Assembly: GCF_000166335.1 (NCBI RefSeq)
Contig: NC_014657.1
Coordinates: 1,842,501 to 1,906,500, forward strand
DNA length: 64,000 nucleotides
Direction of reading: 5' to 3'
Origin: Caldicellulosiruptor owensensis OL
GTDB lineage: Bacteria; Bacillota; Thermoanaerobacteria; Caldicellulosiruptorales; Caldicellulosiruptoraceae
Of the stretch, positions 12,253-36,537 are shown piece after piece (positions within the stretch are counted from its first letter, which is position 1; each line of letters starts with the position of its first letter). The position numbers were made by a program, and so were the translations under genes. The notes below the pieces were generated by a model. It was given only the letters and a program-made list of their open reading frames with translations. It made no database searches and was not told the origin of the DNA.

Positions 12253-13089
12253 CTATAATTTTATTATCCTTCCAAGAATTGTTTTAGAAAAACCTTTATA
12301 TGTGTGATCAAAGGTAATTATCTCTGTTTTATTAAAATCTATTTCACCTGTATGTTGTACTACGTATGGGTATATTTCCAGCTTAGAGCCGGCAACACAA
12401 TATACAGGCATTCTTTCCAGTGGATAATAAACATCTTTGAGCACAACTGGACCTTCAATAAGTTCTCCTGACCAAAAATCTACCCAATTTCCTCTGGGCA
12501 AATAAATGCTTCTTCTTCCTGCAGAATTTATAATCGGAGCCACCAAGAAAATATCTCCACAATAAAATTCATCGTCAATATACCAGCAATATTCATCATC
12601 AGGATGATGAATAAGCAACGCTCTTATGAAAGGATATCCTGTCTTTGTAACTTTTTCACCCTGCTTAACAAAATATGGAATCAATGCATATCGTAATTTC
12701 CACCATTCTCTGACAACATCAGATACATTGGGATAATTATAGGGTTCTCGTGGGGAAGCCCCATGGTATCTCATATGCGAAGTGAATACACCTATCTGTG
12801 TCCAGCGAACATAAATATCGTCATCAGGCCAATTATTCATAAAATCTGGAAGACCATGAAATCCGGGAATATCATGACTCCAAAAACCAAAGCCTGATAC
12901 ACCTAAATGTAAACCACCTCGAATTGTGGCTGCTAAGCCGTCCCATGTACTACTACTATCACCACCCCAATGAACTGGATATCGCTGACATCCTATCCAA
13001 CCTGCTCTTGCCCATATAACAGCTTGTCCTTCTCCTTTAGCTCTTTCTGCATTAAAAAAATATTGTGTTTTATAAGGTATTAATATCAA
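12253..13089 (-). pseudogene. GH31 C-terminal remnant (alpha-xylosidase type)
   Basis: A 278-residue open frame matching only the second half of a GH31 enzyme. It begins just before the acid/base segment (HWGGDSSSTW) and continues through FGFWSHDIPGF and the beta-sandwich. The N-terminal domain and the barrel half with the catalytic nucleophile are missing, and a stop codon lies just upstream in the same frame. It cannot be an active GH31 by itself. A 5' deletion is the simplest explanation. It is distinct in sequence from the intact GH31 at 3038. Confidence 0.8.
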
Positions 13090-18897: not shown

Positions 18898-21800
18898 TCA
18901 TTTATTCATATTTTCAATTGCTCTTATTAACATTGCTATAAATTCTGCCCTTTTTACTGGTTTGTCAGGTTTAAAGCTCCCATCTGGATAGCCTTTCACA
19001 ATACCTAATTTATATGCTTTTGCTACAATTTCAGTATACTCTGCAGTATTGATATCTTTGAACTTAACATCTTCTGGTTCAACTTTTTGCCCTTGTTTTT
19101 CTAAAATCTTTACTATAAATTTTACGGTCTCAATCCTAGTTACTATCCCACTAAAAGCGTTTGTTTCGTTAAATATCTCATTAGATACCATATTCGTAAT
19201 TGCATCCTGAGCCCACTCTGGAACATTAGCTATATTTGGATTACCTGATTTTTTCAAATTAAATGCTCTGTCTAAAATAACCGCTGCTTCTAGGTATGTT
19301 ATTAATTTTTCAGGTTTCAACGTTAAATCAGCGTAACCTGTAATTATTCCTTTTGAAATAGCCTTATTAAATAAACTGTAAGTCCAATTATTTTCTTTTA
19401 CATCGCTGTATATATCACTCAGTTTAGCAGCAACTACCTGAACAGTTCCTGTTTTGTTCAGTTCTAATTGAACTGTATTTATGTTTTTCTTAGTCAATAC
19501 AGGTGTCCATTTCTTGCTTACAGAATCAAACATGAAACCTATAACAACTTTATCATTCTTAACAATCTCGGGAGCTATTTTAATTTCAACTAATATTGGT
19601 TTTTGAATTTTCCCCTTTTCAATACTTATATTTACAGGTTCTATAATCTGAACACCTACACCTACCTTTTCAGTATAACTGCTAAGTGTCTCAACCTTTA
19701 TAACAGGATTGTTCCCTTCAACAGCTTGTGGTGGAACAGAAATCTTTACTTGAGAATTCAGTTGAACGTTTGTTACATTGTTTGTATCTATCTTGGCAGT
19801 TACAATATTCTTTTCAGATGTTTGAGATTGAGGTTTGGGTTGCTGTGTCTCGCCCTGTGTTACTTGTGTTGTCCCTTGCTGATTTTTTTCTTGTTCTTTT
19901 GAAGATGTACTAGTTGTTGATGAAGTTGTTTGTGACTGAGGATTTAAAATAATAGTGGTCACTGTACCAGAAGATGGAGAAGATTTTGTTCCAAAAATAC
20001 CATATATACCACCTTCAGCATCTATGAATGAAATAATATTCTTAGCAGTGTCAATAACCTGACCACTTACAAGCTCCCATTTTGCTGTTGTATTATTATA
20101 TCTGTAAAGTTTTAATGAATTTAAATTATAGCTATTTAAATTTGTAGGATTGAATTCAACCTCTACCTTAACTGGCAATTTTGCTATATTTTCACTCTTA
20201 TTAATCTCTAAATAATTATTTGTGGCATTCAAATCTGAAGGCAATGATATACCACTCAGAGCACCAAGACGTTTTACAGAAATCTTACCACCAACAATTT
20301 CCTCATCATTCTCAATTATAATTTTAACCTTGCTATTTTTAAAGTATAAATCTATCTTGCTCTCAGAAGGTGATTTATAGAACAATTTCTCTTCTGGATC
20401 ATCAATTTTCTTTGGTTTGTTCGGATAATATACATCTTTAACTGGCAAATTATTTGCAAGAACAACATCTCTTATATCTTCACCAAGATAAAAGCTTGTA
20501 TGTGGCGGTTGATTATATGCAACATTCTGCCATGCTATTCCAAGTCTATATACTGGATCATGCATGAGAGTGTAAATTCTATATTGGGTGGGAATTGTCG
20601 TACTATAAATCCTAAGCTCAGTATTATCAAAAGTTGGATATATTACTTCTTCTCGCCAATCTCCCAAGATGTCTGCTTGTAAACACGGGTTTGCTTTTGT
20701 ACCATTTATACTTTTTACACCTTCAAATGTTCTTATTATATCTGTTTTATCTTTAGTTTCATCATATTTGAAAATACTTACATCATCAAGAAGTTCTTGC
20801 ATTAGATCTCCATCCCAGTAAAGTGCAAAGTTCATAGGAAGACCAGCTGCTCGACAATCATTGCTGATTACTTTACCATAAACATTATATATACCTGCAC
20901 CCTTGTTAACATCATAGAAATCTCCCGCACCCCAGAATTCATAACCTGGTTCTGAAGCAATATTTGCACAAACACCACGACCTGTATCTTTGTATGCAAA
21001 ATAAGCCTGCAATGTTTCGCCAGTTGCAGCATCATGAAGCTCAAGTGAGGCCACCGAAGAAACTTCATGAACACCAAATACCTGTAATCCTTCTCGATCT
21101 GGGAAAAATGCTCCAACATGCAAAGCATCACCATGAGAGCCCAGTTCTCTTCCCATTTCACCATCCATTACATATAATATCTTTCCATCATGGTCTAATG
21201 TCAACGAACCTGCTATTATTTCATCACATCCATCATTATCTACATCAGCAACAGATATGTTGTGATTACCCATACCTTCTCCTTTTCCGCCAATTTCTTG
21301 CGTATCAAAATGCCATCTTTCCTGCAGTTTTCCATTGACAAAATCATATGCAACAAATGTTGTCCTCGCGTAATAACCTCTTCCAAAAACTATTGAAGGC
21401 GTGGTTCCATTTAAATATGCAACAGTTGCCAAGAATCTATCAGATCTATTGAACCATGTATCGCCCCAAGACGCAACACCAGTCTTTTCAATTGAATATC
21501 TATATTCTATGCTATCTAAAACTGCTCCTGTTTCACCATCAAATATTGAAATGTATTCTGGACCTCCCCATACTTTACCCGGAAATGAACCACTTGGTCC
21601 ATATCTATATGCTCCATTTTTAGCTGGATCTCCAATTACACTTATCACTTTATTATAATCAACCCTACCATATGTTGCACCATAAACTGTTGTTCCATCG
21701 GCTGTCTTAACAACAAACTCAGATTTTCCATCTCCATCAAAGTCATACACTAAAAACTGATTATAATGCGCACCTGAAGTAAGATTAAGGCCCATATTAA

Positions 21801-24270
21801 TTCTCCAGAGCAATGTGCCATCAAGCTTATATGCATCAAATATTGTTGGACCAGTCAAACCTGTTTGTGAACTGTCAATTGCATTAGATGGTAACCATTT
21901 AACAATTATTTCATATTCGCCGTCTCCATCCAAATCACCAACGCTACAATCATTTGCTTCATATGTGTAAGTTTCTCCTGCTTCATTTACTCCATCTTCA
22001 GGTTTTTGAAGTGGAATTGAAATATAATCCTTGTCAAGTGCTTTTACTCTTGTCTCTTCAATCTTTATGCCATTCATCAGTGTCTCTACTTTATATTCAT
22101 CGCCTGGATTTCCGTTCACATCCAAATAATTTGTCACAGAAAGAGGAGCTGTATTTAGTTTCTGTCCATTCCTATATATATTGAATTTTACGTCCTTTTT
22201 ATACTCATCAGCTAACAATCTCCAGCTTATAAATATCCCATTTTCAGCCTTTAAAGCTATCAATCCTCTGTTGAGCCACTCCATTTGTCTTACAGCTTTC
22301 GATGGTTGTAATCTGTTATATACATAACAAATTGCATATTTACCATAAGTATTGTCAACTGAACTATCTTCTTTTAAAACTCCTTTGAAAGTATAAATTC
22401 CAGGTTTATCCGCTATCCATTGACCTGATAATATCTCCCATTTCGCAATCTCAACTTCCTTTTTCGTACCATCTGCAAGAGTTACTGTAACTTTTGTTGG
22501 AAAACCTATTTGAGATATATCCTGCGCAGTATTCACATATATAGTCTTGTAAGGCAGCTTATCTACATTAATTATTCTGTTAGGTGGAATAGGTTTGTTA
22601 TAAATCCATACATTATCTAGGTAAGTAGTCCAAGTTATATTATTACCTGATGTTCTTATTCCAACAAGGCTTATCGATTTGAGTGTTCCATCAAACGCAA
22701 CACCATCTAAAGAATAAGTAAACTCTACCACTGTTGATGTTTCTGTATCAGTAATTTTAGTTGAAATTACTTTATTCAGAACATCACAATTAATCTCAAT
22801 ATCATACCATTTTTCAGGATCAGTAAAGTAAGTGTTGAATACAACCGAGTTACCTAATATAAGCTGGAGAGGAAAATTTCTCGTATTGTTTAGTTTCCAG
22901 AAACCATTACCAGAAGAATCTATAAGTCTTAGCTCACCGCCATTTTCATATGGATTTGATCCTTTGTCGTTTAAAAGTCCGGGATACCAATTCATTTTTA
23001 CAAGTATTGCATCACCTTTTATAGCTTCTCCAAAAGTCTTTGTCGCAACCCTTCCACCTGTTTGATTAACCTGAGAAAACTCAAGTTTAGGAGTTGAATT
23101 TCCTTTTATAGTATTTGTATTAATATTAAGAGTAGCATTTTGAGTAGTAAATCCCCAATATTTCGGTACAACTGTAATTGTATCACCAAAATCAGTAGCA
23201 TAAACAGCCTCATAACCTGGAATTTGAGGTGGTACAAATGAAAGATTTAATAATCTTACATTGATTTGAGCTGTTATATTGTAATCATTCTTTACCCCCG
23301 TTATTCCATCTACAATAAGATTGCCCACAAACAAATAATTACCTTCTAGGGTTGGATTGTAACTGTAACAGCTCCAGTTAACCGGAACATTGTTAACAAT
23401 TACATCATTTTCTAATTTTACATTTAACACTGTGGGGAAAAATGAAATAACATCATTTATTGAAGTACCCAAAGGAAAATCATAATTATATGTGTAGCTA
23501 CTTACTATTTCTACTATATTTTTAGAACCTTGAATAGGTGCATCAGTTGTAGAAGTATAAATATAAATGTTATCCACATTAGTTGTAAAGTTTAATGTAT
23601 TTCCACTTGCTCTGTTACCAATAATAGATATCTTTTTGATTTTGTTTAAATACACAATATTCTTCAAGTCAAGACCATAAGCTGAAAAATATTTTGATGG
23701 GTCGTCTTTGTTGTAAATCTCGAAGGAAACTGTTTCAGCAACAAAATCAAATAAAATGCGAACAGCTAACCACTTCTGAGATGTATCTATCGCATTAATA
23801 TAAGTAACTTTAGAAAGGTCTAACCCTGTTGTTCCTACACTGTAGCCTATAGAACCATTTGTTCCACCTTTTTTAACCAATCTGAAAAGTGGGTTGTTAT
23901 TCTCGTCGCTGATTAATACTTCACTATTATTTGCTGCGGTTGATACATCCATCGGTTGCCAGTCAAATATAATTAACACTTTGTCTTTTGTAGTAGAATT
24001 AGAAAATGTCTTAACAACTGAACGTGGTCCTGAACCTGATCCCTTTGCCTCTAAATATTTGTTACCATAAACATCTGTTACAACTGTTGCAGTAGCACCT
24101 GAACTTGCCGTAAATCCCCATGTTGAACCATCTTCAAAATTCGTTCCATCAAACAACACATAATTTGATGGATCAAAAATATTATTACTTTTACCAACTA
24201 ACACATTCCCGAAAACATTAAATAATAAAAACGAAACCAATAAAATTAACGAAATTATCTTTTTCTTCAA
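18898..24270 (-). CDS. Surface-anchored rhamnogalacturonan lyase (PL11) with SLH domains
   Basis: A 1,790-residue exported enzyme that cleaves the rhamnogalacturonan-I backbone by beta-elimination. Domain order: signal peptide; a beta-sandwich module (about 35-250); an Ig-like segment; a second related beta-sandwich (about 360-570); a bacterial Ig-like domain (about 575-660); the PL11 YesW-like catalytic propeller (about 665-1,280), rich in calcium-loop motifs such as VGDLDGDGEYE and DFDGDGKSEF; a further beta region; a Ser/Thr/Gln-rich linker (about 1,440-1,490); and three S-layer homology repeats from about 1,620. The SLH repeats anchor it to the cell surface. TTG at 24270 is preferred because AAGGAGG lies nine bases upstream; the alternative TTG at 24294 precedes that site. 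Confidence 0.93.
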   Translation of the reverse strand: MKKKIISLILLVSFLLFNVFGNVLVGKSNNIFDPSNYVLFDGTNFEDGSTWGFTASSGATATVVTDVYGNKYLEAKGSGSGPRSVVKTFSNSTTKDKVLIIFDWQPMDVSTAANNSEVLISDENNNPLFRLVKKGGTNGSIGYSVGTTGLDLSKVTYINAIDTSQKWLAVRILFDFVAETVSFEIYNKDDPSKYFSAYGLDLKNIVYLNKIKKISIIGNRASGNTLNFTTNVDNIYIYTSTTDAPIQGSKNIVEIVSSYTYNYDFPLGTSINDVISFFPTVLNVKLENDVIVNNVPVNWSCYSYNPTLEGNYLFVGNLIVDGITGVKNDYNITAQINVRLLNLSFVPPQIPGYEAVYATDFGDTITVVPKYWGFTTQNATLNINTNTIKGNSTPKLEFSQVNQTGGRVATKTFGEAIKGDAILVKMNWYPGLLNDKGSNPYENGGELRLIDSSGNGFWKLNNTRNFPLQLILGNSVVFNTYFTDPEKWYDIEINCDVLNKVISTKITDTETSTVVEFTYSLDGVAFDGTLKSISLVGIRTSGNNITWTTYLDNVWIYNKPIPPNRIINVDKLPYKTIYVNTAQDISQIGFPTKVTVTLADGTKKEVEIAKWEILSGQWIADKPGIYTFKGVLKEDSSVDNTYGKYAICYVYNRLQPSKAVRQMEWLNRGLIALKAENGIFISWRLLADEYKKDVKFNIYRNGQKLNTAPLSVTNYLDVNGNPGDEYKVETLMNGIKIEETRVKALDKDYISIPLQKPEDGVNEAGETYTYEANDCSVGDLDGDGEYEIIVKWLPSNAIDSSQTGLTGPTIFDAYKLDGTLLWRINMGLNLTSGAHYNQFLVYDFDGDGKSEFVVKTADGTTVYGATYGRVDYNKVISVIGDPAKNGAYRYGPSGSFPGKVWGGPEYISIFDGETGAVLDSIEYRYSIEKTGVASWGDTWFNRSDRFLATVAYLNGTTPSIVFGRGYYARTTFVAYDFVNGKLQERWHFDTQEIGGKGEGMGNHNISVADVDNDGCDEIIAGSLTLDHDGKILYVMDGEMGRELGSHGDALHVGAFFPDREGLQVFGVHEVSSVASLELHDAATGETLQAYFAYKDTGRGVCANIASEPGYEFWGAGDFYDVNKGAGIYNVYGKVISNDCRAAGLPMNFALYWDGDLMQELLDDVSIFKYDETKDKTDIIRTFEGVKSINGTKANPCLQADILGDWREEVIYPTFDNTELRIYSTTIPTQYRIYTLMHDPVYRLGIAWQNVAYNQPPHTSFYLGEDIRDVVLANNLPVKDVYYPNKPKKIDDPEEKLFYKSPSESKIDLYFKNSKVKIIIENDEEIVGGKISVKRLGALSGISLPSDLNATNNYLEINKSENIAKLPVKVEVEFNPTNLNSYNLNSLKLYRYNNTTAKWELVSGQVIDTAKNIISFIDAEGGIYGIFGTKSSPSSGTVTTIILNPQSQTTSSTTSTSSKEQEKNQQGTTQVTQGETQQPKPQSQTSEKNIVTAKIDTNNVTNVQLNSQVKISVPPQAVEGNNPVIKVETLSSYTEKVGVGVQIIEPVNISIEKGKIQKPILVEIKIAPEIVKNDKVVIGFMFDSVSKKWTPVLTKKNINTVQLELNKTGTVQVVAAKLSDIYSDVKENNWTYSLFNKAISKGIITGYADLTLKPEKLITYLEAAVILDRAFNLKKSGNPNIANVPEWAQDAITNMVSNEIFNETNAFSGIVTRIETVKFIVKILEKQGQKVEPEDVKFKDINTAEYTEIVAKAYKLGIVKGYPDGSFKPDKPVKRAEFIAMLIRAIENMNK

Positions 24271-24404
24271 AACAACTTCCCTCCTTAATTTCAATTTTTT
24301 TAGATAAATTACTTCTCTACTTCGCCTTTCAGATGCAGTTTTGTTTATATATTTTGCTTATATGTTTTGTTTTGTGTGCGTTTTGTTAATATATTTCTGT
24401 ATTT

Positions 24405-24605: not shown

Positions 24606-25823
24606 TTACATTGATTCTTTATATAGACTGAAATAATTATAGTTACCCAAATCAAAAACACTTGTTTTTTGTGCCCACTTAATACCAATCTCAGAATATA
24701 ATCTTTTATGAAAAGCTGCTTTATCAATAATTTCTTTTATTCCTTTTATGTATGTATATACCTTCCCATTCTCATTTTCAATTTCTATATACTCATCTGG
24801 AATATCGAAAATTCTTTTAGACGATTCAAAAGCCCCGTTTGATGCCAGTACAAAATTGCGGGTTATTTCCAGCGGACAATAAAGCTGTTTACCTTCAAAT
24901 AAATGTTCCACCATATTTACATACATATTAACAAACAAGTCTTCTTTGCCACCATCAAATTCTTCAACAGAACCATCACAATATTCAATCTTAAATCTAT
25001 TAGAAAACCACCAATTCGCTTTAGCTTTTTCAGCTTCAATAATTATAAAAGGAGATTCTTCTTCTCTATTGCAAAGGGTCGAGTAAAAATATACCTCTGT
25101 GCCTCCATGAGTAATTATTCTCACACATGCTGTGTCTTCACCTTCAATTTTATGACCATGATAGAGTTCTGCTTGCACTTTTTTAGGTACTCCTCCACCT
25201 GGTTGAGCTGTTTCAGCAATAATTAGTTCATTGTTTAAAAGATGTGCAAGAGGATTGTTTATTGTTCCATCCAAGACATAATTGCCATCAACAACGAGCT
25301 TACCAGCCCATGCATTTCTTTGATAATAGCTTTCATCCCTTTTCCATCGTCCAATACCTACAATTGATTTTATCCTGCCAAGTCGGCCTTCTTTTATATA
25401 CTCAAGAAGTTTTCTAAATGCTTTACCAGAGGTATTTTGAAAGTTCACACTACAAACCTTATTTGTTTTTCTTTTTGTCTCAATTATAGCGTCAATATCT
25501 TGAATTGTCACAGCAGGAGGTTTTTCTAGCAAGACATTAAAGCCTTTTTCCATTGCTTCAATTGCCATTGGAGTATGTAAATGAATGGGCGTTGATATAG
25601 CAACAAAATCTAACTCTTTATGATTCTCAAGCATCAGTCTGTAATCCTGATAATACTTAACACCTTGCAAAGTCAATCTATCAATCACTTCTTTATTTTT
25701 TTCGTAGCTTGTTGCAACAATTGCTTTCAAGTCAATCATCTTCCCCTGGAGCTGTTCTATTGACCGCAGGTGTATACTCCCAAATCCACTAATTCCAATA
25801 AGACCAACCTTTGCAATGCTCAA
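24606..25823 (-). CDS. Gfo/Idh/MocA-family oxidoreductase
   Basis: A 405-residue NAD(P)-dependent dehydrogenase: Rossmann motif VGLIGISGFGSIH, EKPPAVT with the expected catalytic Lys, and a C-terminal domain (NYVLDGTINNPLAHLL). It is the last gene of a four-gene operon, 27 bases after the zinc dehydrogenase. The start is a TTG with AAGGGGG nine bases before it. It is longer than its relative at 17745 and clearly a different subfamily. The substrate is not known. Confidence 0.82.
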   Translation of the reverse strand: MSIAKVGLIGISGFGSIHLRSIEQLQGKMIDLKAIVATSYEKNKEVIDRLTLQGVKYYQDYRLMLENHKELDFVAISTPIHLHTPMAIEAMEKGFNVLLEKPPAVTIQDIDAIIETKRKTNKVCSVNFQNTSGKAFRKLLEYIKEGRLGRIKSIVGIGRWKRDESYYQRNAWAGKLVVDGNYVLDGTINNPLAHLLNNELIIAETAQPGGGVPKKVQAELYHGHKIEGEDTACVRIITHGGTEVYFYSTLCNREEESPFIIIEAEKAKANWWFSNRFKIEYCDGSVEEFDGGKEDLFVNMYVNMVEHLFEGKQLYCPLEITRNFVLASNGAFESSKRIFDIPDEYIEIENENGKVYTYIKGIKEIIDKAAFHKRLYSEIGIKWAQKTSVFDLGNYNYFSLYKESM

Positions 25824-25850
25824 GACTGTATGCCCCCTTTTAAATTATCT

Positions 25851-26939
25851 TCATGGCTTCAGAACAGATTTTATTGTATTTCTGTTTCCCATATCCTCAA
25901 GTGCTTTCGTCGCATCAGTCAATTTATAAATATTCGTAATCATTTTTTTAAAAAGTTCTTTATTTTGTAACACCACATTAACTGCCATATTCAAATGTTT
26001 TGTATCACTGACCCATACTCCTTGATATCTTAAATTTTTCCTTACAATGTCATAATAACAATCAAGTGTAACGCTGCCGTTTGGATCACCAAAACCAAGT
26101 GATAAGTAACTTCCACCATTTCGTACAAGTTTTATTCCCTCACTCACTGCTGATGGATGTCCCACAGCTTCAATTGCCAAATCAACACCACGCCCACTTG
26201 TAATATCCATTATTATTTCCTTCCTTTGTTCAGATGTAGTTGAATTTCTATCAAGTACATGCGTTGCCCCAAATTCCTCACACATTTTAAGTCTTTCTTT
26301 GGTACCGCCAATCACAATTATATTTCTTGCTCCTTTGAGTTTTGCAAAAATAATCGCATAAAGCCCTATAGGACCTGGTCCTTGAATTAGAACACTGTCT
26401 CCAAAGTCAGGTGAAACAATGTCAAAAGCGTGAGCACATGTTGCACCAGAACATGAAGCAGAGACTAAAACTTCTGGCTCAATATTTTCTTTGATTTTTA
26501 GAACCTTTGTATCTTTGTGAAGATAAATGTACTCCGAATAGCAGCCTCTCAAATGCGGCGGCGCCATGCAACTAACACTTATCCCATATGTCCATCTATT
26601 AGGGCACAAGTAGGGTTCTTTTTTAACGGCACAAAAATAACACTTTCCACACGTAACACCTCTGTCCCAGATTATAAAATCCCCCTCTTTTATCTTTTCG
26701 CCGTTTACATCAAAACAGATACCTGAGATGGCATATACACGTCCAACACCTTCATGCCCTAAAATCATGGGAAGTTTGGTGCGCGGGTCATTCCCTTTGA
26801 ATATATGTACATCAGATCCACAAACACCTGCCGCTTCAATTTTAACAAGAAGTTCACCATCAGAAGGCTTGATTAGTTCAAACTCTTTTGCTCTTAACGG
26901 CTTGTTAAATTCTTCTAAAACCATTGCATAAGCTTTCAT
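25851..26939 (-). CDS. Zinc-dependent alcohol/polyol dehydrogenase (MDR family)
   Basis: A 362-residue medium-chain dehydrogenase. The catalytic zinc site is read in GVCGSD and GHEGVGRV. A structural-zinc Cys cluster follows (CGKCYFCAVKKEPYLC), and the nucleotide fold is seen at VLIQGPGPIGLYA. Such enzymes oxidise secondary alcohols of sugars or polyols, as in threonine or sorbitol dehydrogenase. It lies 12 bases after the flavoprotein gene. Together with the following Gfo/Idh gene it gives the operon two NAD(P)-linked sugar dehydrogenases. Confidence 0.87.
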   Translation of the reverse strand: MKAYAMVLEEFNKPLRAKEFELIKPSDGELLVKIEAAGVCGSDVHIFKGNDPRTKLPMILGHEGVGRVYAISGICFDVNGEKIKEGDFIIWDRGVTCGKCYFCAVKKEPYLCPNRWTYGISVSCMAPPHLRGCYSEYIYLHKDTKVLKIKENIEPEVLVSASCSGATCAHAFDIVSPDFGDSVLIQGPGPIGLYAIIFAKLKGARNIIVIGGTKERLKMCEEFGATHVLDRNSTTSEQRKEIIMDITSGRGVDLAIEAVGHPSAVSEGIKLVRNGGSYLSLGFGDPNGSVTLDCYYDIVRKNLRYQGVWVSDTKHLNMAVNVVLQNKELFKKMITNIYKLTDATKALEDMGNRNTIKSVLKP

Positions 26940-26951
26940 TCCTGTTTCCCC

Positions 26952-28745
26952 CTACACTGTTGGTTTCACCGGTTGCATTGGAAAGACTTCAATTTGATTA
27001 ATCTCTTTATTTAGTCTGCATACATGATATACATTGTACTTTTCATTCCTTGGCTTTGGCCACAAATCGCTCAAGTTTTCAAACATCAAGTGCGGTCCTC
27101 TGCTTTCATCTCTTAAAATACAGCTTTTTACCACTGCCTCTGCACACAAAAGCATGTTCTTCAGCTCCAAAAGATATTCATACTCAACAGGCTTGATTTT
27201 TCTTGTTTTCAATTCCTCAATTTTCATAAGCGCTTTTTGAAGTCCATCTTGATATCTCACAACACTTGCATACAAATCCATAACCCTATTTAGTTCTGAT
27301 ATGGCATTCTCCAAATCAATGCCATCTTCAGCTATATAGCTTTTATAACTTTCAAACAGGCGGTTTGCTTCAGAAATTGCAGATTCTTCATCGATTGAAG
27401 TGTTTGAGGCAAATTCAAAGCTACTTTCCCCTGCTATCTTACCAAAAACCTGAGTATCCAAAAGTGCATTTCCGCCTGGTCTGTTTGCTCCATGTTGCCC
27501 GCCTGCACACTCGCCACAAGCATACAAGCCACTAATTGCTGTATTTGTTTTTTCTCTAATTTTTACACCACCCTGGAAATGCTGAATTGATGGCGCAATT
27601 TCTATCATTTGGTTTCTAAGGTCAATTCCCCTTTTCAAAAACCACTCAACAGTCTGAGGATTTATTTCACACAGTCTTTCATATGGAGTAGATCTTTTAT
27701 TTGTAAGATTTTTAATTTCCGAGTAATATCTTTGTTTTAAGTCTTCTCTTAGCTGTTCAAATTCAAAACCTTTCGGATTTTGAGTAAAGTCTAAAAACAC
27801 TTTACCCCCACGGGCAATTTCTCTGAACACTGCAATGTCTATCAAACATGTCTTATGCTCGTAGCTTATTGGCCACGTTGCACCTTTTTCAAATACATCA
27901 TTGTACGTGAGAGGATAATTTAACAAAAACTCTTCTCCTTTTTCATTTACAAACCTGGGAACACATCTCATTATACTTCCCGAACACGCAAGTTTTGTGT
28001 TGGGTGATGAAAGGCCTATTTGAATAAACTCCATATTCACAAGCAAAGCCCCTGCACGAAGTGCCATTGCATAACCATCACCTGTCATACGCGGTGGAAA
28101 AACATTGCTTTTATAAATACTTCCTGCACCGCCTGTTGCGAGAATAACGGCTTTTGCAAGTATTATAATATTTTGATTCCTTCTGAACCCAATCGCTCCA
28201 CAAACTCTGTTATTCACAATAATCAAATCAGCTATCATTACATCTTCTAAGACTTCAACATCCTTCATCTCTCCAAGTTTTCTAATTAAAGCCTTTTCTA
28301 TTTGGACAGCAGTATCTGGACCTGTAAAACAAGCACGTGCATATATAGAGCCATCTGTTACAAATTGAATGGGTACTCCACTTTCTTTTACAAAGGGAAC
28401 ACCAAGACTATCTAAATAAAAGAAAGCATCAGCCGAGTTTTTTGCTAAAATCTCAGCCAGGTCATAGTCGGAAACACATCCTCCAATCTCATATATATCT
28501 TTTGCATGGTATTTCCAGTTATCCTCACCTTTAGGTTCAGTTGTAGGAAGTGTTGCATGAAAAGCCATTCTATCAGAGTATGCAAGAGCAGTTGTTCCAC
28601 AACTCCCCAGTTTGCCCTTTACTGTTAATAAAACTTTAACTTTATTTCCTGTTTCATAAGCCTTTTCACATGCAGCAATTGCTGCCCTCAAACCTGCACC
28701 GCCACCACCTATTACCAGTATATCTGTTTTATATATCACTTTCAA
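26952..28745 (-). CDS. FAD-dependent oxidoreductase, fumarate reductase/aspartate oxidase-like flavoprotein
   Basis: A 597-residue protein of the SdhA/FrdA/NadB group. The FAD-binding motif DILVIGGGGAGLRAAIAA is at the N-terminus. The capping domain and the FAD segment GECAGGQHGANRPGGNALL are present, as is HFQGGVKI near the active site. The C-terminal helical domain of true SdhA is retained. It overlaps the preceding DHOD-like gene by four bases (TTGA), so the two are translationally coupled. No SdhB-type iron-sulfur partner is encoded nearby; the coupled gene supplies ferredoxin-type clusters instead. The substrate is unknown. Confidence 0.85.
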   Translation of the reverse strand: MKVIYKTDILVIGGGGAGLRAAIAACEKAYETGNKVKVLLTVKGKLGSCGTTALAYSDRMAFHATLPTTEPKGEDNWKYHAKDIYEIGGCVSDYDLAEILAKNSADAFFYLDSLGVPFVKESGVPIQFVTDGSIYARACFTGPDTAVQIEKALIRKLGEMKDVEVLEDVMIADLIIVNNRVCGAIGFRRNQNIIILAKAVILATGGAGSIYKSNVFPPRMTGDGYAMALRAGALLVNMEFIQIGLSSPNTKLACSGSIMRCVPRFVNEKGEEFLLNYPLTYNDVFEKGATWPISYEHKTCLIDIAVFREIARGGKVFLDFTQNPKGFEFEQLREDLKQRYYSEIKNLTNKRSTPYERLCEINPQTVEWFLKRGIDLRNQMIEIAPSIQHFQGGVKIREKTNTAISGLYACGECAGGQHGANRPGGNALLDTQVFGKIAGESSFEFASNTSIDEESAISEANRLFESYKSYIAEDGIDLENAISELNRVMDLYASVVRYQDGLQKALMKIEELKTRKIKPVEYEYLLELKNMLLCAEAVVKSCILRDESRGPHLMFENLSDLWPKPRNEKYNVYHVCRLNKEINQIEVFPMQPVKPTV

Positions 28746-29887
28746 ACTTCACCTCTTTTTACCATTGAAATTGCTTTGACTGGACAAAGTTCCGCACAAA
28801 GGCCACAGCCATCACAATTTTGATTAACTCTAAACTTTCCATTATCCTTTTCAATTGCATCATATATACACACTGTGAAGCACTTGCTACATGATGTGCA
28901 TTTCTCTTTGTCAATCTTAGCAACAGCCCAATGTGTTCTGTCAACAGAGTCCATGTCAAGAATTTTGCTGCACACCTTTCCTTTAAAATCATCAATCGTG
29001 TAGTAACCTTTTCTCTCCATATACTCTTCTAAATACTTGTTTATCTTGTTTATAACTCCATAGCCATTCAAAATCACAGTGGTGCAAACTTGAACAGCAG
29101 ATGCTCCTGCCAGTATGTATTTGACTACATCCTCACCGTTCATAGCACCGCCACTTGCACTGATACTACATTTTACTTTTGGGGCTACAGCACTTATCCA
29201 TCTCAAACCATACATAATTGCCCATGGACCCCCATGCCCTGCATAACCACCGTGCAAAATAGGTGCTTCTTTTTCTATATCAATGTCAAGCCCAGTGAAT
29301 CTGTTAAACATGACAAGCCCGTCTGCTCCTGCTTGATCAAGCCTTAAGGCATCAGACCCCGGATTTGTAGATTGAGGAGTCATTTTTGGTATCACAGGTA
29401 TTTTGACATTGCTTTTGACAAGCTTTGTTGTGTGGACCATCTCTTCAATTACATCCATACCAGACATTATATGAACACCGTGCGGGCAAGATAGATTTAG
29501 CTCTATTGCATCAGCTCCTGCTTGTTCCATAAGTTTGCTATACTCAATCCAAGCATCATCTGTGTAACAGTTTATACTCGCAATGACGGGAATGCTTAGT
29601 TTTTGTTTCGCTTTGAATATAAATTCAGCATATTCCTGAGGGTCAAACTCGCTTGCCTGTTCATATGAGTAAAGCGTAAATGTATTTTCATGTTTAACTA
29701 TTTTAAACCTTGGAGTGGGGGCAATTCTGCACACTTCCTTTTGAAAAAGACTTTTTGTCACAACAGCACCAGCCCCGTTTTCTTCACATCTTTGAAGCCT
29801 CTCCACAGTTCCGGTAATCCCAGCAGATGCAACAATTACAGGGGTTCTTAAATTAAGTTTTGCATATGTTGTTGATAGGTTTGGCAT
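28742..29887 (-). CDS. Dihydroorotate dehydrogenase-like protein with two 4Fe-4S clusters (PreA-like)
   Basis: A 381-residue protein. About residues 1-310 are an FMN-binding TIM barrel of the class 1 dihydroorotate dehydrogenase family (TPVIVASAGITGT, AIELNLSCPH, GADGLVMFNR, SISASGGAMNGEDV). The C-terminus has two ferredoxin motifs (CTSCSKCFTVC and CDGCGLCAELC, each with a trailing CP or C). This is the layout of PreA, the C-terminal half of dihydropyrimidine dehydrogenase. No pyrimidine genes are nearby; the gene leads a four-gene operon in a pectin locus, so another substrate is likely. An AGAGGAGG site and a consensus promoter precede it. Confidence 0.85.
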   Translation of the reverse strand: MPNLSTTYAKLNLRTPVIVASAGITGTVERLQRCEENGAGAVVTKSLFQKEVCRIAPTPRFKIVKHENTFTLYSYEQASEFDPQEYAEFIFKAKQKLSIPVIASINCYTDDAWIEYSKLMEQAGADAIELNLSCPHGVHIMSGMDVIEEMVHTTKLVKSNVKIPVIPKMTPQSTNPGSDALRLDQAGADGLVMFNRFTGLDIDIEKEAPILHGGYAGHGGPWAIMYGLRWISAVAPKVKCSISASGGAMNGEDVVKYILAGASAVQVCTTVILNGYGVINKINKYLEEYMERKGYYTIDDFKGKVCSKILDMDSVDRTHWAVAKIDKEKCTSCSKCFTVCIYDAIEKDNGKFRVNQNCDGCGLCAELCPVKAISMVKRGEV

Positions 29888-30214: not shown

Positions 30215-32821
30215 TTAAAGTTCTTGTAGCTCATCTCCAATAAATTCAAGCGCAAGCAATGCATTTATTGACCACTGAGAAGCTATATTAGTTGAAATAA
30301 ACGGAACTTCAACAACAGGCACAGGTATAGTGGATAATTGTAAATTGATACCACCATTACAAATAAATTTAAGCCATGGATTTTTGTTATAGTCTAAAAA
30401 CATCTGCCAGATTTCCTTTTTTAATTCAGGAATATTTTTCTTCATTGCTGCAAAGGCAGCCATTCCAATGTTGAAGATATTTAATTTAAATCCAAAGTTT
30501 GGAACACCCCAGCTTTTTAAAATCTCATTTTTGTTTTCCTTAAATTCGGTATAAAAAAGCCCTTGCTGAGCACATAACTCTTCAAATTCTTTATCTTCAA
30601 AATTTTTGGCTATTTCAAGCCAAACAAGTGTATTTCCGAAACAAAATACAAAATTTGAACCTCCTGTGTATTCAATTGGTTTTACCTGGTTATTTTCAGG
30701 ATCATAGTCAAATATGCCACCCGAAATAAATGCTGCTGGATTTTTCTTTAAAAAGTCCAGTATCTTTATTATCTTTTGTTTGTAAATATCTTCCTGGTAT
30801 CTTTCCCATCTTACCAACCAATTTGCACAAAAGGTCATAATATCAGGTCCAACTCTTATGTGTACTCTATTTTCAGGATCATTCGTAAAATACGCACGCA
30901 TAGGATCCATGTGCATAATCTGTTTATCAATATCTTTTACATCATCCATAAGCTGCCCTATTCTTTCATCGGCAGTTAGATAATAATAATATCTGTGAAG
31001 GTATGCCATGCTAATTCTTACTTCTTTGCAACCACATCCCCAATGAACCACATTATGCCTGGAACCCAATCCTTTGTATTCTCCGAGATGATACATGTCT
31101 ACTTCTGATGTATGTCTTGTCATTGCTTCAGCCATTTTAAATATATCAAAACGTCCTGTTCGTAAAAACATAAGCCACAACCAAATATTTGGTACAAGTT
31201 CTGTATTCTGCCATGCATACCCACCAATATCATATTTCCACATATGTCTTACTGTATCATAGCTATGCATAAAATCACCATAGTCCCAAAAACCGTACCA
31301 CTTTCTTCTCTCAACTTCTTTCAGATAAAAATCGACAATAGCTGTCAGTATTCTTTCAATCTTTTCTTTCTTGGAGTTGCTATTATCCGGTAAATTTAAT
31401 CCTTCAAATATCTCTGTTTCTTTATACCTTTCAGGACTATATACAAGAAGAGGAGAAAATCCTTGCATTTTTGCATATTCCAAAAGCTGCTCACTTGTCG
31501 GAGGATAATCAAAACAGTACAGCCACAGCTCATTTGTATTAGCTATACCATAGGGAGTACTTCTATACTCATCAAACCCTTCATATGAAGAAGATGTGTA
31601 TGTACCAAAATCATAATGTCTCAAATCCATAACTTCACCATAAGGTGGCCAAAGCCAAATTGTTAAAATTGCTTCAGAAGAAGTTAAAGCTTTTACCTCA
31701 AATCCTGAAGGATATTTTTGCCAAAAATCCTTTAAAGCTACTCCAAGTCCACCATTCTCATCGCCAACATAAGCAAATCCCATAGCTCTTTTGCCTTCTG
31801 TTGCTTTTATAAAATTGCACTGGTAAGACGTACGTTTTTTAATAACATAGTGCTCGGAGGAATCTTGAAAAAGAATAAATTCATCCCACTCTGGAGTATT
31901 GTTAATCTCCCTAATATAATGGTGGTCCTCGTCAATATCAAAATTTATCGGTTGTCCATTGACCTGATTTTGAAACATTGTCTTGTATCTCTCTTTTCTG
32001 TACACATCTATCAAATTTTTTGGTGACTCGCAAAAAAGTCCACTGTCCCCTCCAAATCTTACAAATCTATTGTACAGAGGAGAGTGCAAAGGAAGATTGA
32101 ATTTTAAGCCTAATCCTTTTATAAAATCTTGATGGGGATTTCCGTTGTAAATAAATGTATGAACAATCTTAATTTTATCTGAATTTGCATAGAAATATAA
32201 TCTCAACTCAAAAGGTAGCCACCCCTGTTTGAGCAAAGAACCATCAAATGTCATCTTGGTATTCCGCAAATGTCTTCCCCACACTTTTATAACACTTCTC
32301 AAAGGTCCGCAAGATTCTATCTTTGCACCTAATATTTCAGGGATATATTCTTCCTCTACTTTAGTTTTATAGCCCATGAGATTGGAAATTTTTTCTGTCT
32401 TAATGACCTGGGCAAGATTTGAACAAATAACTTTTTCTTTAATTTTTATGTATTCAATAATTTTACTTCCGGTTTTGCAAAGTTTACACTCAAGTTTGCC
32501 TGTTGTAATATTAATATGAGTTTTATCTTCAAAAACTCTAATCATTTCTTCAAATTTTTTAGCAGCAACTTCTTCAATACATGCAAACACTTCATCAGGT
32601 AAATTGGTACCAAAGAAAGCAGCATGACCACTTACTTTTACTGACCCGTCACCCCAGTATGAGAGTACCCAACTTTGAGCAGGAATTATACTCCCATCCT
32701 CGCTTCTTAAAACAATATTTTTTATATTATTTAATTGTCCTTTTTTCCATGGAATACAAAATGTTACCCCAATGTTGTCTATCCGAGGTTTTTCAAGCCA
32801 TTTTAGTTTTACTTTCTGCAT
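30215..32821 (-). CDS. Exo-rhamnogalacturonan lyase-like protein (PL26, PcRGLX family)
   Basis: An 868-residue protein without signal peptide. The N-terminal RIFT-like region (VTFCIPWKKGQ, AQSWVLSYWGDGSVKVSGHA) and the helical barrel that follows match the Penicillium PcRGLX family, exo-acting lyases that release unsaturated galacturonosyl-rhamnose from RG-I ends. Recognition is from pattern memory of the N-terminal motif. Cytoplasmic location suits processing of imported oligosaccharides. TTTGGAGG precedes the ATG. The gene starts only 38 bases beyond the terminator after the solute-binding gene, so it probably depends on read-through from the transporter operon. Confidence 0.78.
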   Translation of the reverse strand: MQKVKLKWLEKPRIDNIGVTFCIPWKKGQLNNIKNIVLRSEDGSIIPAQSWVLSYWGDGSVKVSGHAAFFGTNLPDEVFACIEEVAAKKFEEMIRVFEDKTHINITTGKLECKLCKTGSKIIEYIKIKEKVICSNLAQVIKTEKISNLMGYKTKVEEEYIPEILGAKIESCGPLRSVIKVWGRHLRNTKMTFDGSLLKQGWLPFELRLYFYANSDKIKIVHTFIYNGNPHQDFIKGLGLKFNLPLHSPLYNRFVRFGGDSGLFCESPKNLIDVYRKERYKTMFQNQVNGQPINFDIDEDHHYIREINNTPEWDEFILFQDSSEHYVIKKRTSYQCNFIKATEGKRAMGFAYVGDENGGLGVALKDFWQKYPSGFEVKALTSSEAILTIWLWPPYGEVMDLRHYDFGTYTSSSYEGFDEYRSTPYGIANTNELWLYCFDYPPTSEQLLEYAKMQGFSPLLVYSPERYKETEIFEGLNLPDNSNSKKEKIERILTAIVDFYLKEVERRKWYGFWDYGDFMHSYDTVRHMWKYDIGGYAWQNTELVPNIWLWLMFLRTGRFDIFKMAEAMTRHTSEVDMYHLGEYKGLGSRHNVVHWGCGCKEVRISMAYLHRYYYYLTADERIGQLMDDVKDIDKQIMHMDPMRAYFTNDPENRVHIRVGPDIMTFCANWLVRWERYQEDIYKQKIIKILDFLKKNPAAFISGGIFDYDPENNQVKPIEYTGGSNFVFCFGNTLVWLEIAKNFEDKEFEELCAQQGLFYTEFKENKNEILKSWGVPNFGFKLNIFNIGMAAFAAMKKNIPELKKEIWQMFLDYNKNPWLKFICNGGINLQLSTIPVPVVEVPFISTNIASQWSINALLALEFIGDELQEL

Positions 32822-32912: not shown

Positions 32913-34478
32913 TTAATTGAGTATCTTGTACAAATCCTCTTTATACGGAATATTCTTTTTGTACTTACGATACAGTGCATTTACTTCTTTTATAATCTGG
33001 TCTCCACCCTGCTTTCTCCAGTTGTCAAGGACTTTTTTAAAGCCCTGATCGTTGATTTGACCAGTAATATACTTAACACGTGCATCCTCAATCATATTAT
33101 CAAGTGTTACACCACGTTTGATGTAAGTTTCTGACATACCCATTAATGCTTCTGCCGGATTTGGCACAAGAATATTGAGTTTTTCATTCAAAGCCTGCAT
33201 ATCTGTTTGTAGTTGCAGAAGCGGTGTCATATATCTTGGTGTTCCACCGTTCGCAGGATAAAAATGCAAAACCTGATTAAGTCCACTTATCTCTCTTGAC
33301 AAATCTGCTGGCAAGTTTGGAATAGGATCTATTTTTCCATCTACAAGTTTATAATGTCTGTTCGGTAGTCCATAACCAAACAGATCTTGCATTGTTCTGT
33401 CGCCAAACTTATCCAATATCGACATTACTTTCTTGAATGTATTCATATCTTTTACACTTGTCTTTGAAACCATCAGATACCCCGCATAACCAGAAGTCGG
33501 CATATTTCTTAGACCATACTTACCTTTTACAGAGACAACAATATCCATTATATCTGTATCCTTTGCATCCTTAGGAATAAACCCATTGTTTTTTAAACCG
33601 TTGTAAATTCTGTTTGCAGAGTCTATAACGTCAATCTTTACTCCACCTTTGCCCTGTGAATAATAATCTTCCCATCTTGCACCTGGAACACTTGGGAAGT
33701 CATGGTTAAACAGCTTTTCTTGATACATCTTTCGCCAGAACTTTAAATTTTCAAGATATGCATTTGTTAAGAAAGACGGAACCAATTGGCCGTTTTTGTT
33801 CAGCCCCCATCCATTCGGACCACCAAACCATGTAAGAGTAATATAGAATGGTCCATTGTAATTGCAAACAATCATTCCATATGTGTCATTTTTCCCATTT
33901 TTATCTGGATCATTGTAAGTAAACTTCTTTAACATGTTGTATAAATCGTCAATTGTTTCAAGTTTAGTGATACCAACATTTTTAGCCCAATCTTTTCTAT
34001 ACACAATACCATTTCTTCCCAACGTTCTTGAACGCGGAATACCATAAATTTTACCATCAATAGAAGAGTTCCAAAGAACTATATCCGGAATTGTCTTCAA
34101 ATTCTTATATTGCTTTATATATGGCCCAAGTTCCCAAAATGCTCCAGCCTTGCAAGCACCAATTATTGAGGCTGTTTTGCCCGGAACATAAACTACCATT
34201 GGAAGATTTCCACTTGCTAACATAATGTTTAATTTATCATTATAACCGTCTGCAGGTACCCATGTAAATTCCAGATCAGTTTTTAGGTACTCTTCTGCTT
34301 TTAAAATAACTGGACTATTTGAAGGTGCAGGCTCTGTTCCAAAATACTGAGCCATGAGTGTAAGTTTAAATGAATACTTTGATTTTGAAGCGCCAAATAC
34401 TCCCATTGATGTTATTAACAAACCCACGATACAGATACTAACTACAGTTAACCTCAAAATCTTCTTCACTTTACTCAT
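32913..34478 (-). CDS. ABC transporter extracellular solute-binding protein (LplA-like)
   Basis: A 521-residue exported binding protein for oligosaccharides. Two permease genes lie directly upstream in the operon, the arrangement of Bacillus lplABC/ytcQ-yteP systems for pectin fragments. The signal sequence ends near VFGASKS. No Cys lies close to the cleavage site, so the usual lipoprotein anchor appears to be missing. GGGAGGG precedes the ATG. The ligand is inferred from the rhamnogalacturonan context. Confidence 0.85.
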   Translation of the reverse strand: MSKVKKILRLTVVSICIVGLLITSMGVFGASKSKYSFKLTLMAQYFGTEPAPSNSPVILKAEEYLKTDLEFTWVPADGYNDKLNIMLASGNLPMVVYVPGKTASIIGACKAGAFWELGPYIKQYKNLKTIPDIVLWNSSIDGKIYGIPRSRTLGRNGIVYRKDWAKNVGITKLETIDDLYNMLKKFTYNDPDKNGKNDTYGMIVCNYNGPFYITLTWFGGPNGWGLNKNGQLVPSFLTNAYLENLKFWRKMYQEKLFNHDFPSVPGARWEDYYSQGKGGVKIDVIDSANRIYNGLKNNGFIPKDAKDTDIMDIVVSVKGKYGLRNMPTSGYAGYLMVSKTSVKDMNTFKKVMSILDKFGDRTMQDLFGYGLPNRHYKLVDGKIDPIPNLPADLSREISGLNQVLHFYPANGGTPRYMTPLLQLQTDMQALNEKLNILVPNPAEALMGMSETYIKRGVTLDNMIEDARVKYITGQINDQGFKKVLDNWRKQGGDQIIKEVNALYRKYKKNIPYKEDLYKILN

Positions 34479-34566
34479 AAATTAACTCCCTCCCGCTTTT
34501 TTGTTTTTGAAAAATAAATTTTTGAATTATCTCCTTGTTTATAGTATCTCATTTTACATCTTTACA

Positions 34567-35445
34567 TCACTCCTTCAATGAACCAATAAACATACCTTTT
34601 ATGAAGTACTTTTGAAGCCATGGATACAAAAGCATTATCGGTAAAGTAGCTACAACAATTATCGCCATCTTTAGTGACTCCTGTGGAGGTTGGAAATTGG
34701 GATCAAATTGTGTTAGATCTGAAGCAAGCGTGGTTGACAGCATTACTATTTGCCTTAAAATTAGCTGTACAGGCCATTTCTCAGCATCGTTTATATACAA
34801 AAGCGCTCCAAACCATGAATTCCAATGCCCAACTCCATAGAACAAAGCAAATGTCGCAATAATAGGCTTTGAAAGAGGAAGTATTATCTTCCACAACACT
34901 TGAGCTTCTGTACATCCATCAATTCTTGCTGCATCCTCTAAATCCTGTGGCATTTCCTGGAAAAAGTTTTTGACAACAAAGAAGTTAAAGGGGCTAATTG
35001 CACCTGGCAACCACAGTGCCCAATAAGAGTCTAATAAACCCAGACTTTTTACAAGCAAATATGTAGGAATCATTCCACCACCAAAAAGCATTGTAAAGAT
35101 AACACCATTCAATATAATACTTCTACCTATAAAGTGCTTTTTTGAAAGAGCATATGCCATTGTAAATGTGAAAAACAGATTTACCAACGTACCTCCTACC
35201 GTGATAATCACACTGTTGAGCATACTACGAAGAAAATAGTTTGAAGCAAAAATAAACTTATAAGTCAAAAGAGTAGGATTATGAGGAATTATAAAGAATG
35301 TCCTCGTTTTTATTTCCGAATCTGAAGCAAATGAGGCAGCCAAAACATATAGAAAAGGTAAAACAGTTATTATCGCCCATATTCCAAGGAATATATGATT
35401 AAAAACATCAAAAATAGTACTTGCTACTGTTTTATTCTGTTTCAT
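34567..35445 (-). CDS. ABC transporter permease (LplC-like)
   Basis: A 292-residue inner-membrane permease of the carbohydrate uptake family 1 with about six hydrophobic segments. The EAA loop contacting the ATPase is seen as DLEDAARIDGCTEAQVLWKI. The ATG at 35445 is chosen over a GTG at 35454 that overlaps AGAGGTG. It follows the other permease by 33 bases. No ATPase gene is in the window; such importers often share a distant MsmX-type ATPase. Confidence 0.9.
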   Translation of the reverse strand: MKQNKTVASTIFDVFNHIFLGIWAIITVLPFLYVLAASFASDSEIKTRTFFIIPHNPTLLTYKFIFASNYFLRSMLNSVIITVGGTLVNLFFTFTMAYALSKKHFIGRSIILNGVIFTMLFGGGMIPTYLLVKSLGLLDSYWALWLPGAISPFNFFVVKNFFQEMPQDLEDAARIDGCTEAQVLWKIILPLSKPIIATFALFYGVGHWNSWFGALLYINDAEKWPVQLILRQIVMLSTTLASDLTQFDPNFQPPQESLKMAIIVVATLPIMLLYPWLQKYFIKGMFIGSLKE

Positions 35446-35478
35446 TTTTGTCACCTCTCATATTCTCGAAATAAAAGA

Positions 35479-36393
35479 TTAGAACAATGAAGTTTCAGTA
35501 AATTTCTTAGACAGATAGTTAGAAACCTGAATCAAAATCAGTCCAACAACAGATTTAAAAAGACCAACTGCTGTACTGTAACTATACGCTCCTTGTGTAA
35601 CACCAATTTGATAAACATATGTGTCAAACACTTCTGCTACTGACCTGTTGATAGGATTTTTCATCAAAAATATCTGTTCAAAGCCAGTATCGAGAAGATG
35701 TCCTAATCGCAAAATGAAAAGTATGATTACCGTACTCATAATTGAAGGAATAGTGATGTGCCAAGTCTGCTGCCACCTTGTTGCCCCATCCACAATAGCA
35801 GCCTCATATAAAGTTGGATCAACATTTGAAAGAGCTGCTAAGAAGATTATTGTTCCCCATCCTGCTTCTTTCCATATGCTCTGAATTATTATAAGGGGTC
35901 TGAACCATCTTGGATCTGTCAAAAATTCTATTTTTTTACCCGTTAAGCTATATAGAATATTATTTATAACCCCTGTCTCACTTGAGAGAAGCACGTATGT
36001 AATACTTGCTATGACCACCATTGAAACAAAGTGAGGAACATATACACATGTCTGGACAATCCTCTTATAAACCTGATTTCGCACCTCGTTGATAAGTAGC
36101 GCTAAAATAATTGGCACAGGGAAATAGAAAAGTATATTGTAAAATGAAATTAACAGTGTATTTCTAAACAGCATCGGAAAATCAGGGTCGGTGAAAAGTG
36201 TTTTAAAATGCTCAAAACCTACCCACGGACTTTTCCAGAACCCTAAAAACGGATTAAAATCTTGAAAGGCAACTACTATACCAAACATTGGAATGTACCT
36301 AAAAATGATGAAGTACAAAATACCAGGCAGAGCCAAGATATAAAGCCATTTGTCTTTTTTGAGTTTTTTCCATACGGAAGTGTTAGCTGTCAT
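35479..36393 (-). CDS. ABC transporter permease (LplB-like)
   Basis: A 304-residue permease with about six membrane segments (WLYILALPGILYFIIF first). The EAA loop is DPTLYEAAIVDGATRWQQTW. The frame stays open to 36537, but the consensus promoter for the operon lies inside that extension, so the ATG at 36393, with AAAGGAG upstream, is the credible start. It is the first gene of the importer operon. Confidence 0.9.
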   Translation of the reverse strand: MTANTSVWKKLKKDKWLYILALPGILYFIIFRYIPMFGIVVAFQDFNPFLGFWKSPWVGFEHFKTLFTDPDFPMLFRNTLLISFYNILFYFPVPIILALLINEVRNQVYKRIVQTCVYVPHFVSMVVIASITYVLLSSETGVINNILYSLTGKKIEFLTDPRWFRPLIIIQSIWKEAGWGTIIFLAALSNVDPTLYEAAIVDGATRWQQTWHITIPSIMSTVIILFILRLGHLLDTGFEQIFLMKNPINRSVAEVFDTYVYQIGVTQGAYSYSTAVGLFKSVVGLILIQVSNYLSKKFTETSLF

Positions 36394-36508
36394 TAAAACA
36401 TTCTCTCCTTTCTTTTTTGGTCCCTTGATAATATTGTTTTTCATCAGATTTCCATTATTTTTGTAGGTATTAATATTGAGATTTGAATTTTGTTTTTGGT
36501 TTAATTTT

Positions 36509-36537
36509 ATTTTAATACTTTGTTTTTGTTGTGTCAA
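36509..36537 (-). promoter_or_regulatory. Promoter of the importer operon
   Basis: On the minus strand TTGACA (36537-36532), exactly 17 bases, then TAAAAT (36514-36509). The spacer and flanks contain CAACAAAAACAAAG and CCAAAAACAAAAT, a motif seen near other promoters of this island. Confidence 0.82.

Follow-up and report, generated by a model that had tools for sequence, protein, structure and literature searches.

What a set of redox enzymes is doing in the middle of a locus for rhamnogalacturonan (RG) breakdown is the question raised by a 64,000-nucleotide stretch of the Caldicellulosiruptor owensensis OL genome (2.43 Mb, one contig; NC_014657.1, positions 1,842,501 to 1,906,500), hereafter called the window. 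Between a PL11 and a PL26 lyase gene lie four genes encoding a dihydroorotate dehydrogenase/PreA-like protein (DHOD), a FrdA-like flavoprotein (FRD), a zinc dehydrogenase (ADH) and a Gfo/Idh-type dehydrogenase (GFO). An original prediction, made from the letters of the sequence, had taken them for one operon acting on a pectin-derived product, and we confirmed all four open reading frames on the minus strand. Judged by sequence and gene order, the four genes are a real, conserved redox unit, and the claim that they provide a redox route from a hexuronate to 2-keto-3-deoxygluconate (KDG), taken alone, is a fairly probable one. The full reading, in which a glucuronate-type hexuronate would be converted to KDG, FRD and DHOD would act as a two-site flavin enzyme and 4-O-methyl-D-glucuronate would be the top candidate substrate, is more tentative, and we give it a probability of roughly 0.4.

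Pfam and NCBIfam searches confirmed the four families, none of the four proteins reaching an NCBIfam equivalog cut-off. In DHOD, an FMN-binding TIM barrel of the dihydroorotate dehydrogenase/PreA type (residues 4-290; PF01180, 2e-29) is followed by a C-terminal ferredoxin domain for two 4Fe-4S clusters (residues 323-378; PF14697), and the Pfam domain search detected no NAD(P)H domain. The NCBIfam models PRK07565 and PreA matched below cut-off, and the score against the curated PyrD model was 169.7 bits, short of the cut-off of 269; a second DHOD-like gene, for a protein of about 300 residues, is present elsewhere in the same genome. Alignment to pig dihydropyrimidine dehydrogenase (DPD) showed that K574, E611, N668, C671 and N736 are conserved, whereas T737 is replaced by Arg in 12 of 12 aligned DHOD relatives, a substitution that would be consistent with an acidic ligand. 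Elsewhere, proteins of 850-875 residues (L065:9596-12148, L067:4895-7459 and L069:5854-8448) combine the DHOD domain, a PreT/GltD-like NAD(P)H module and the ferredoxin domain in one fused chain, with no pyrimidine genes noticed nearby and no FRD gene adjoining.

FRD is an FAD protein of the FrdA/NadB fold (FAD_binding_2 and Succ_DH_flav_C; PF00890, 2e-44, and PF02910). Relative to Escherichia coli FrdA, the covalent-FAD histidine H44 is Gly, and H232, R287 and H355 are Gly, Thr and Gln, respectively; among FRD relatives, the changes at H232 and H355 are found in 17 of 17 and that at R287 in 16 of 17, there or at neighbouring residues. The carboxylate-binding R390 of FrdA and R248 are retained, and the motifs QHFQ and SDRMAFH are invariant across 15 core members. 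By these residues FRD is not a fumarate reductase, and its ligand is likely to be a mono-carboxylate. AlphaFold models built from three-row alignments were poor (pLDDT 41 for FRD and 38 for GFO). Active-site residues and neighbours together ruled out a pyrimidine or respiratory role, in agreement with the predicted lack of such partners: the PyrD cut-off is missed, the FrdA residues are replaced, and no gene for a FrdB-type iron-sulphur subunit lies anywhere from PL11 to PL26, the operon included. The remaining two proteins are a medium-chain zinc dehydrogenase (ADH; PF00107, PF08240) and a Gfo/Idh/MocA oxidoreductase (GFO; PF01408, Gfo/Idh N-terminal domain, 1e-19).

The link to KDG and uronates rests on gene context, namely that of FRD relatives at about 50% identity, which turned up at 17 additional loci in 11 genera of the phylum. 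An ADH of the same subfamily (45-60% identical) is present in 13 of the 17, and a KDG kinase, nearly always together with KDPG aldolase, lies within the fetched flanks of nine; counted by genus, KDG kinase is near FRD in 7 of 11, with a chance probability of about 1e-11 under a crude by-genus model that ignores phylogeny. LacI regulators and transporters of the TRAP, Liv or CUT2 type recur in these loci. The TRAP-type neighbours are related to solved DctP proteins, a kinship that looks uronate-like by PDB titles; as the comparison does not show ligands, it was not used as evidence. For example, L119 and L120 each hold an Oxidored_FMN (Old Yellow Enzyme, OYE) protein, FRD, ADH, one sugar ABC transporter, KDG kinase and KDPG aldolase, and are almost complete pathways in themselves; the genomes that carry them, G391 and G135, have no UxuA, UxaA or UxaC. 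Genes for uxaA, uxaB or uxuA lie inside or near L122-L126. No lyases were seen within about 10 kb of the KDG-type FRD-ADH loci.

The same loci revealed an exchange of partners. DHOD is retained in L063, L064 and L066; in most others an OYE-type protein of about 449 residues stands in its place, and L118, L121 and L128 show neither. All 11 OYE-type partners carry CxxCxxC-x11-C near the C-terminus and may hold an iron-sulphur cluster. Both kinds of partner are FMN barrels without an NAD(P)H domain, and by analogy FRD seems to stand where DPD or BaiCD have their NAD(P)H module. The module, its exchange of partners, the absence of NAD(P)H domains and the KDG/uronate neighbours can all be read directly from the sequences and their gene context. 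Genes with lower similarity to DHOD (33-35%) and FRD (33-36%) again lie together in L074, L075 and L078, with two DHOD copies in L078 and UbiD-like genes in L074 and L078; this suggests that DHOD-FRD pairs form a broader family, some of whose members act on other substrates. Three simpler rules for FRD carriers were tried and ruled out: UxuA is not generally absent (it is present in 23 of 34 genomes), KduI-family matches occur in many FRD-positive genomes, Caldicellulosiruptor included, and UxaC is not a constant partner, being found only in Caldicellulosiruptor and Thermoanaerobacterium carriers.

Closer to the window, the DHOD gene is present in 7 of 12 Caldicellulosiruptor genomes (94-100% identical), the same seven that have PL26; such an identical partition has a chance of 1 in 792, although both genes lie in one linked locus. 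All six other carriers have a GH2 beta-glucuronidase gene between PL26 and the operon (PRK10150, 850 bits, where the cut-off is 544; the closest PDB entries are beta-glucuronidases). The spacing varies among carriers. An ABC transporter, comprising a binding protein and two permeases, is directly upstream of DHOD in L058-L060, and in L057 the transporter is located downstream of the operon. An IS21-like istA/istB pair interrupts the beta-glucuronidase gene in two of these loci (L056:7085-9072 and L057:11869-13856), where the redox operon is intact.

The order DHOD-FRD-ADH-GFO was also found in the Thermoanaerobacterium genome G390 (two copies), in T. butyriciformans and in T. saccharolyticum NTOU1, with 70-82% identity to the window for DHOD, FRD and ADH and 67% for GFO, and its conservation in another genus indicates more than chance adjacency. 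The contig scan gave two usable Thermoanaerobacterium loci, the other 14 hits being matches of 30-50% or to ferredoxin domains. One G390 copy, L062, comes after rhaA and rhaB in a locus that also holds a class II aldolase, a DeoR regulator, uxaC, GH106 and two GH4 genes (best PDB match, alpha-galacturonidase), with uxaA and uxaB 2-5 kb past uxaC and RglFGH-like transporter genes (L129) on the other side, the latter 50-70% identical to the window's own set. Other copies (L061, L086 and L040) occupy xylan loci that contain GH39, and L061 also has a GH67 alpha-glucuronidase and two GH52 genes; in at least one species (G238), the search at the threshold applied returned no copy other than the xylan one. 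The xylan-locus copies are preceded by a rhaB remnant, FGGY_C only, which is 79-82% identical to the intact gene; L061 and L040 also have a transposase just upstream. From the remnant and the transposase, the cassette appears to have moved from the rhamnose/uronate locus to the xylan locus.

These comparisons bear unevenly on the original prediction. A redox unit acting on an acid derived from plant polysaccharide, outside the textbook pathways, is supported. The proposed tie to pectin or lyase products was not supported, judged by the refuting condition that came with the prediction: close copies occur in xylan loci marked by GH67, GH52 and GH39, and the distant FRD-ADH loci are accompanied by KDG kinase, KDPG aldolase and monomer transporters, no lyase having been seen within about 10 kb. 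Nor do the neighbours point to unsaturated galacturonate; they indicate uronates, those of the glucuronate type in particular.

We infer a substrate, an order of steps, an electron path and a chemistry as follows. A plant hexuronate, most likely of the glucuronate type, would be freed by glucuronidases, and uronate-release genes do surround the operon: the beta-glucuronidase in six Caldicellulosiruptor loci, GH67 in L061 and GH4 in L062. Because FRD seems to occupy the NAD(P)H-module position of DPD and BaiCD, we propose that FRD (FAD) and DHOD (FMN and two 4Fe-4S clusters) act as one enzyme with two flavin sites, one of which would oxidise the carbon adjoining the carboxylate, electrons travelling via the iron-sulphur clusters to the other, which would reduce a C=C bond or remove a C4 substituent. 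ADH would use NAD(H) on a ketone or aldehyde, the only NAD(H) step in the methylglucuronate route; GFO would be accessory and probably works at the glycoside or 3-keto stage in oligosaccharide-importing species. The product would be KDG, the entry compound of the KDG kinase/KDPG aldolase pathway.

Since several carriers already have UxaC, UxuA and UxaA for glucuronate and, outside Caldicellulosiruptor, galacturonate, a modified uronate is the more likely substrate. 4-O-methyl-D-glucuronate fits because its methyl group blocks the oxygen that UxuA expels, so that the normal pathway should stall, and because the balance closes: 4-O-methyl-glucuronate + 2[H] would give KDG + methanol. It also fits because RG/arabinogalactan and xylan settings can both supply it; RG and arabinogalactan are sources of this sugar acid. 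Xylan is another (PMC4194401), and the same paper routes 4-O-methyl-glucuronate simply into the uronate pathway. A further reason is that an MtaA/CmuA-like URO-D protein recurs in five FRD loci (OYE-type or contig-end), although such methyltransferase-like proteins are only a hint of methyl transfer. That 4-O-methyl-glucuronate is handled by a flavin-based, corrinoid-free route, in which FRD and an exchangeable Fe-S/FMN partner (DHOD-like or OYE-like) would pass electrons inside a single complex, the methoxy group at C4 leaving as methanol and KDG being delivered, is in our judgement doubtful. In G098 and G110 (L131 and L132), several URO-D genes are clustered with uxuA and uxaB-like genes, and these clusters are possibly linked to methylated sugars.

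Several observations weigh against the glucuronate-to-KDG reading. The window locus has lost the beta-glucuronidase, and Caldicellulosiruptor genomes have UxaC and mostly UxuA, so that the operon ought to be dispensable for plain glucuronate. Most KDG-type FRD loci have no GFO, the DHOD frame is broken in L040, and the xylan context of the Thermoanaerobacterium copies may reflect a recent transfer. Next to the URO-D genes we noticed no corrinoid protein, and we found no open-access literature linking these enzymes to 4-O-methyl-glucuronate, which we propose from gene context and chemistry.

Among the alternatives, the one that survives best is that the operon supplies the galacturonate branch that Caldicellulosiruptor otherwise lacks, converting tagaturonate made by UxaC to KDG in place of UxaB and UxaA. 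None of the 12 Caldicellulosiruptor genomes has UxaA (PF04295), the genus is reported to lack the conventional steps that follow UxaC (PMC8579813), and the FRD family is linked to KDG kinase and KDPG aldolase. However, a role as UxaA/UxaB replacement is weakened by the G390 operon, which shares its locus with uxaC, uxaB and uxaA, and by the uxaA/uxaB genes near the FRD loci of G098, G246 and G270. In addition, five of the 12 Caldicellulosiruptor genomes have no operon, and G001, the only one of these in the UxaC sample, has UxaC; tagaturonate use has also been assigned to other clusters, hem and uxa (PMC8579813). We consider this explanation unlikely. A second alternative, which we hold to be distinctly unlikely, is that the operon acts on the 4,5-unsaturated uronate produced by PL11 and PL26, by reduction or in some other way. 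The location of the operon between two lyase genes, a ring C=C bond adjoining a carboxylate much as in orotate, and the balance C6H8O6 + 2[H] = KDG all suit this idea, but lyases were seen neither at the KDG-type FRD loci nor in the retrieved portions of the Thermoanaerobacterium loci, all seven Caldicellulosiruptor genomes sampled have a KduI-family gene, and one reductase would suffice; a route for unsaturated galacturonate in Caldicellulosiruptor has been described (PMC8579813).

A 3-keto glycan pathway, in which GFO would oxidise a glucuronide at C3, with ADH and the flavin enzymes processing a 3-keto or glycal product, is quite improbable. The best PDB match of GFO is a glucuronide-3-dehydrogenase (8TDI_L, E 1e-13), glycoside 3-dehydrogenases are among its NCBIfam matches, and GFO is retained where oligosaccharide transporters occur; the PDB match, however, is weak, falls within the N-terminal half of a broad family (residues 44-184) with no full-length similarity found, and the operon has no lyase or hydratase of known type, most FRD loci having no GFO at all. 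Rhamnose catabolism, for example the disposal of L-lactaldehyde, is very improbable: rhaA-rhaB lies directly upstream in G390 and lactaldehyde enzymes are reported missing from Caldicellulosiruptor (PMC8579813), but Athe_0702-4 have been proposed for that step (PMC8579813), one dehydrogenase would be enough, and a role in rhamnose use only is unlikely because most FRD-ADH loci have KDG genes and no rhamnose genes.

The architecture of the operon in the window was as predicted (Table 1). The first two genes overlap by the four bases TTGA (28745-28742), an overlap that is not fixed, as the two genes are separated by a 3-base gap in L056. The promoter is conserved in two other genomes (L056 and L057) and has the joint best score in its region; since promoter-like sites in the operon region are no more numerous than in shuffled sequence, its support comes from position and conservation and not from counts. 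The terminator was also confirmed. Between promoter and DHOD lies a perfect inverted repeat, absent from the original prediction and single-copy within the window, whose stem is conserved and whose loop varies among the window, L055, L056 and L057; it is absent from L058-L060. It may be an operator or an RNA hairpin/switch, and an Rfam scan of the window, this repeat included, returned no RNA family. Two further genes in the window are incomplete: a GH106-like gene is split over two frames, by a frameshift or an assembly error, since its G390 counterpart (L129:3-1772) is a single frame, and a GH31 glycosidase gene is left as a C-terminal fragment, its N-terminal part missing.

Table 1. Features of the window in and around the redox operon
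Feature	Positions	Strand	Description
DHOD	29887-28742	-	381 aa; first operon gene
FRD	28745-26952	-	597 aa; FrdA-like
ADH	26939-25851	-	362 aa; Zn dehydrogenase
GFO	25823-24606	-	405 aa; Gfo/Idh, last operon gene
Promoter	30010-29982	-	TTGACT-N17-TATAAT, extended -10 (TG); 11/12 match
Leader inverted repeat	29952-29931	-	AAGGAGTGG-4-CCACTCCTT; 9 bp, perfect; fold z -5.2
Terminator	24512-24480	-	GAGGATTATC-13-GATAATCCTC then TTTTATTTTT; 10-bp stem; fold -13.5 kcal/mol, z -3.5
PL26 rhamnogalacturonan exolyase, RglX type	30215-32821	-	PF21345, PF21346; upstream of operon
ABC sugar-transporter binding protein and two permeases, RglFGH type	32913-36537	-	Pfam
PL11 rhamnogalacturonan lyase with SLH domains	18898-24294	-	PF21348, PF18370, PF00395; downstream of operon
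GH106-like gene	36693-38525 + 38401-39228 (span 36693-39228)	-	split over two frames
GH31 glycosidase	12253-13089	-	C-terminal fragment

Uronic acids, and 4-O-methyl-glucuronate especially, are among the commonest side groups of wood and pectin, and how anaerobes handle the 4-O-methyl group is usually passed over; a conserved module of FRD, ADH and either DHOD or OYE, with KDG kinase, KDPG aldolase and glucuronidase genes for neighbours, is a concrete and testable candidate. If the reading is true, two unrelated Fe-S/FMN barrels that swap on one FrdA-like partner would represent an unusual redox-enzyme design. The component families are known; their combination, the partner exchange and the implied reaction did not turn up in the open-access papers searched. 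With FrdA and the L-aspartate oxidase NadB, FRD shares the FAD-binding fold and one carboxylate-binding Arg, but it lacks the covalent-FAD His, H232, the proton-shuttle R287 and H355, has no FrdB and carries invariant motifs of its own. DHOD resembles PreTA and mammalian DPD in its FMN TIM barrel, its two 4Fe-4S clusters and the conserved catalytic Cys, Asn, Lys and Glu, whereas its operon has no gene for a PreT or NAD(P)H module, Thr737 is Arg, the partner is FrdA-like and pyrimidine genes are not nearby. The OYE-type partners are, like BaiCD and other Fe-S Old Yellow Enzymes, Oxidored_FMN proteins with a Cys4 motif, but they have about 449 residues instead of about 640, no C-terminal NAD(P)H domain and a context of KDG genes. 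The closest solved relative of ADH is 1VJ0 (phmmer E 2e-118, full length), TM0436 of Thermotoga maritima, whose gene lies in a pectin/uronate gene region; it is not known to have an assigned function or an FRD or DHOD gene as neighbour. As in the hexuronate isomerase pathway (UxaC-UxaB-UxaA/UxuB-UxuA), with whose genes operon-type loci coexist in several genomes, KDG is the end product implied by the KDG kinase and KDPG aldolase neighbours, but the operon would use redox flavoenzymes in place of one NADH reductase and one dehydratase.

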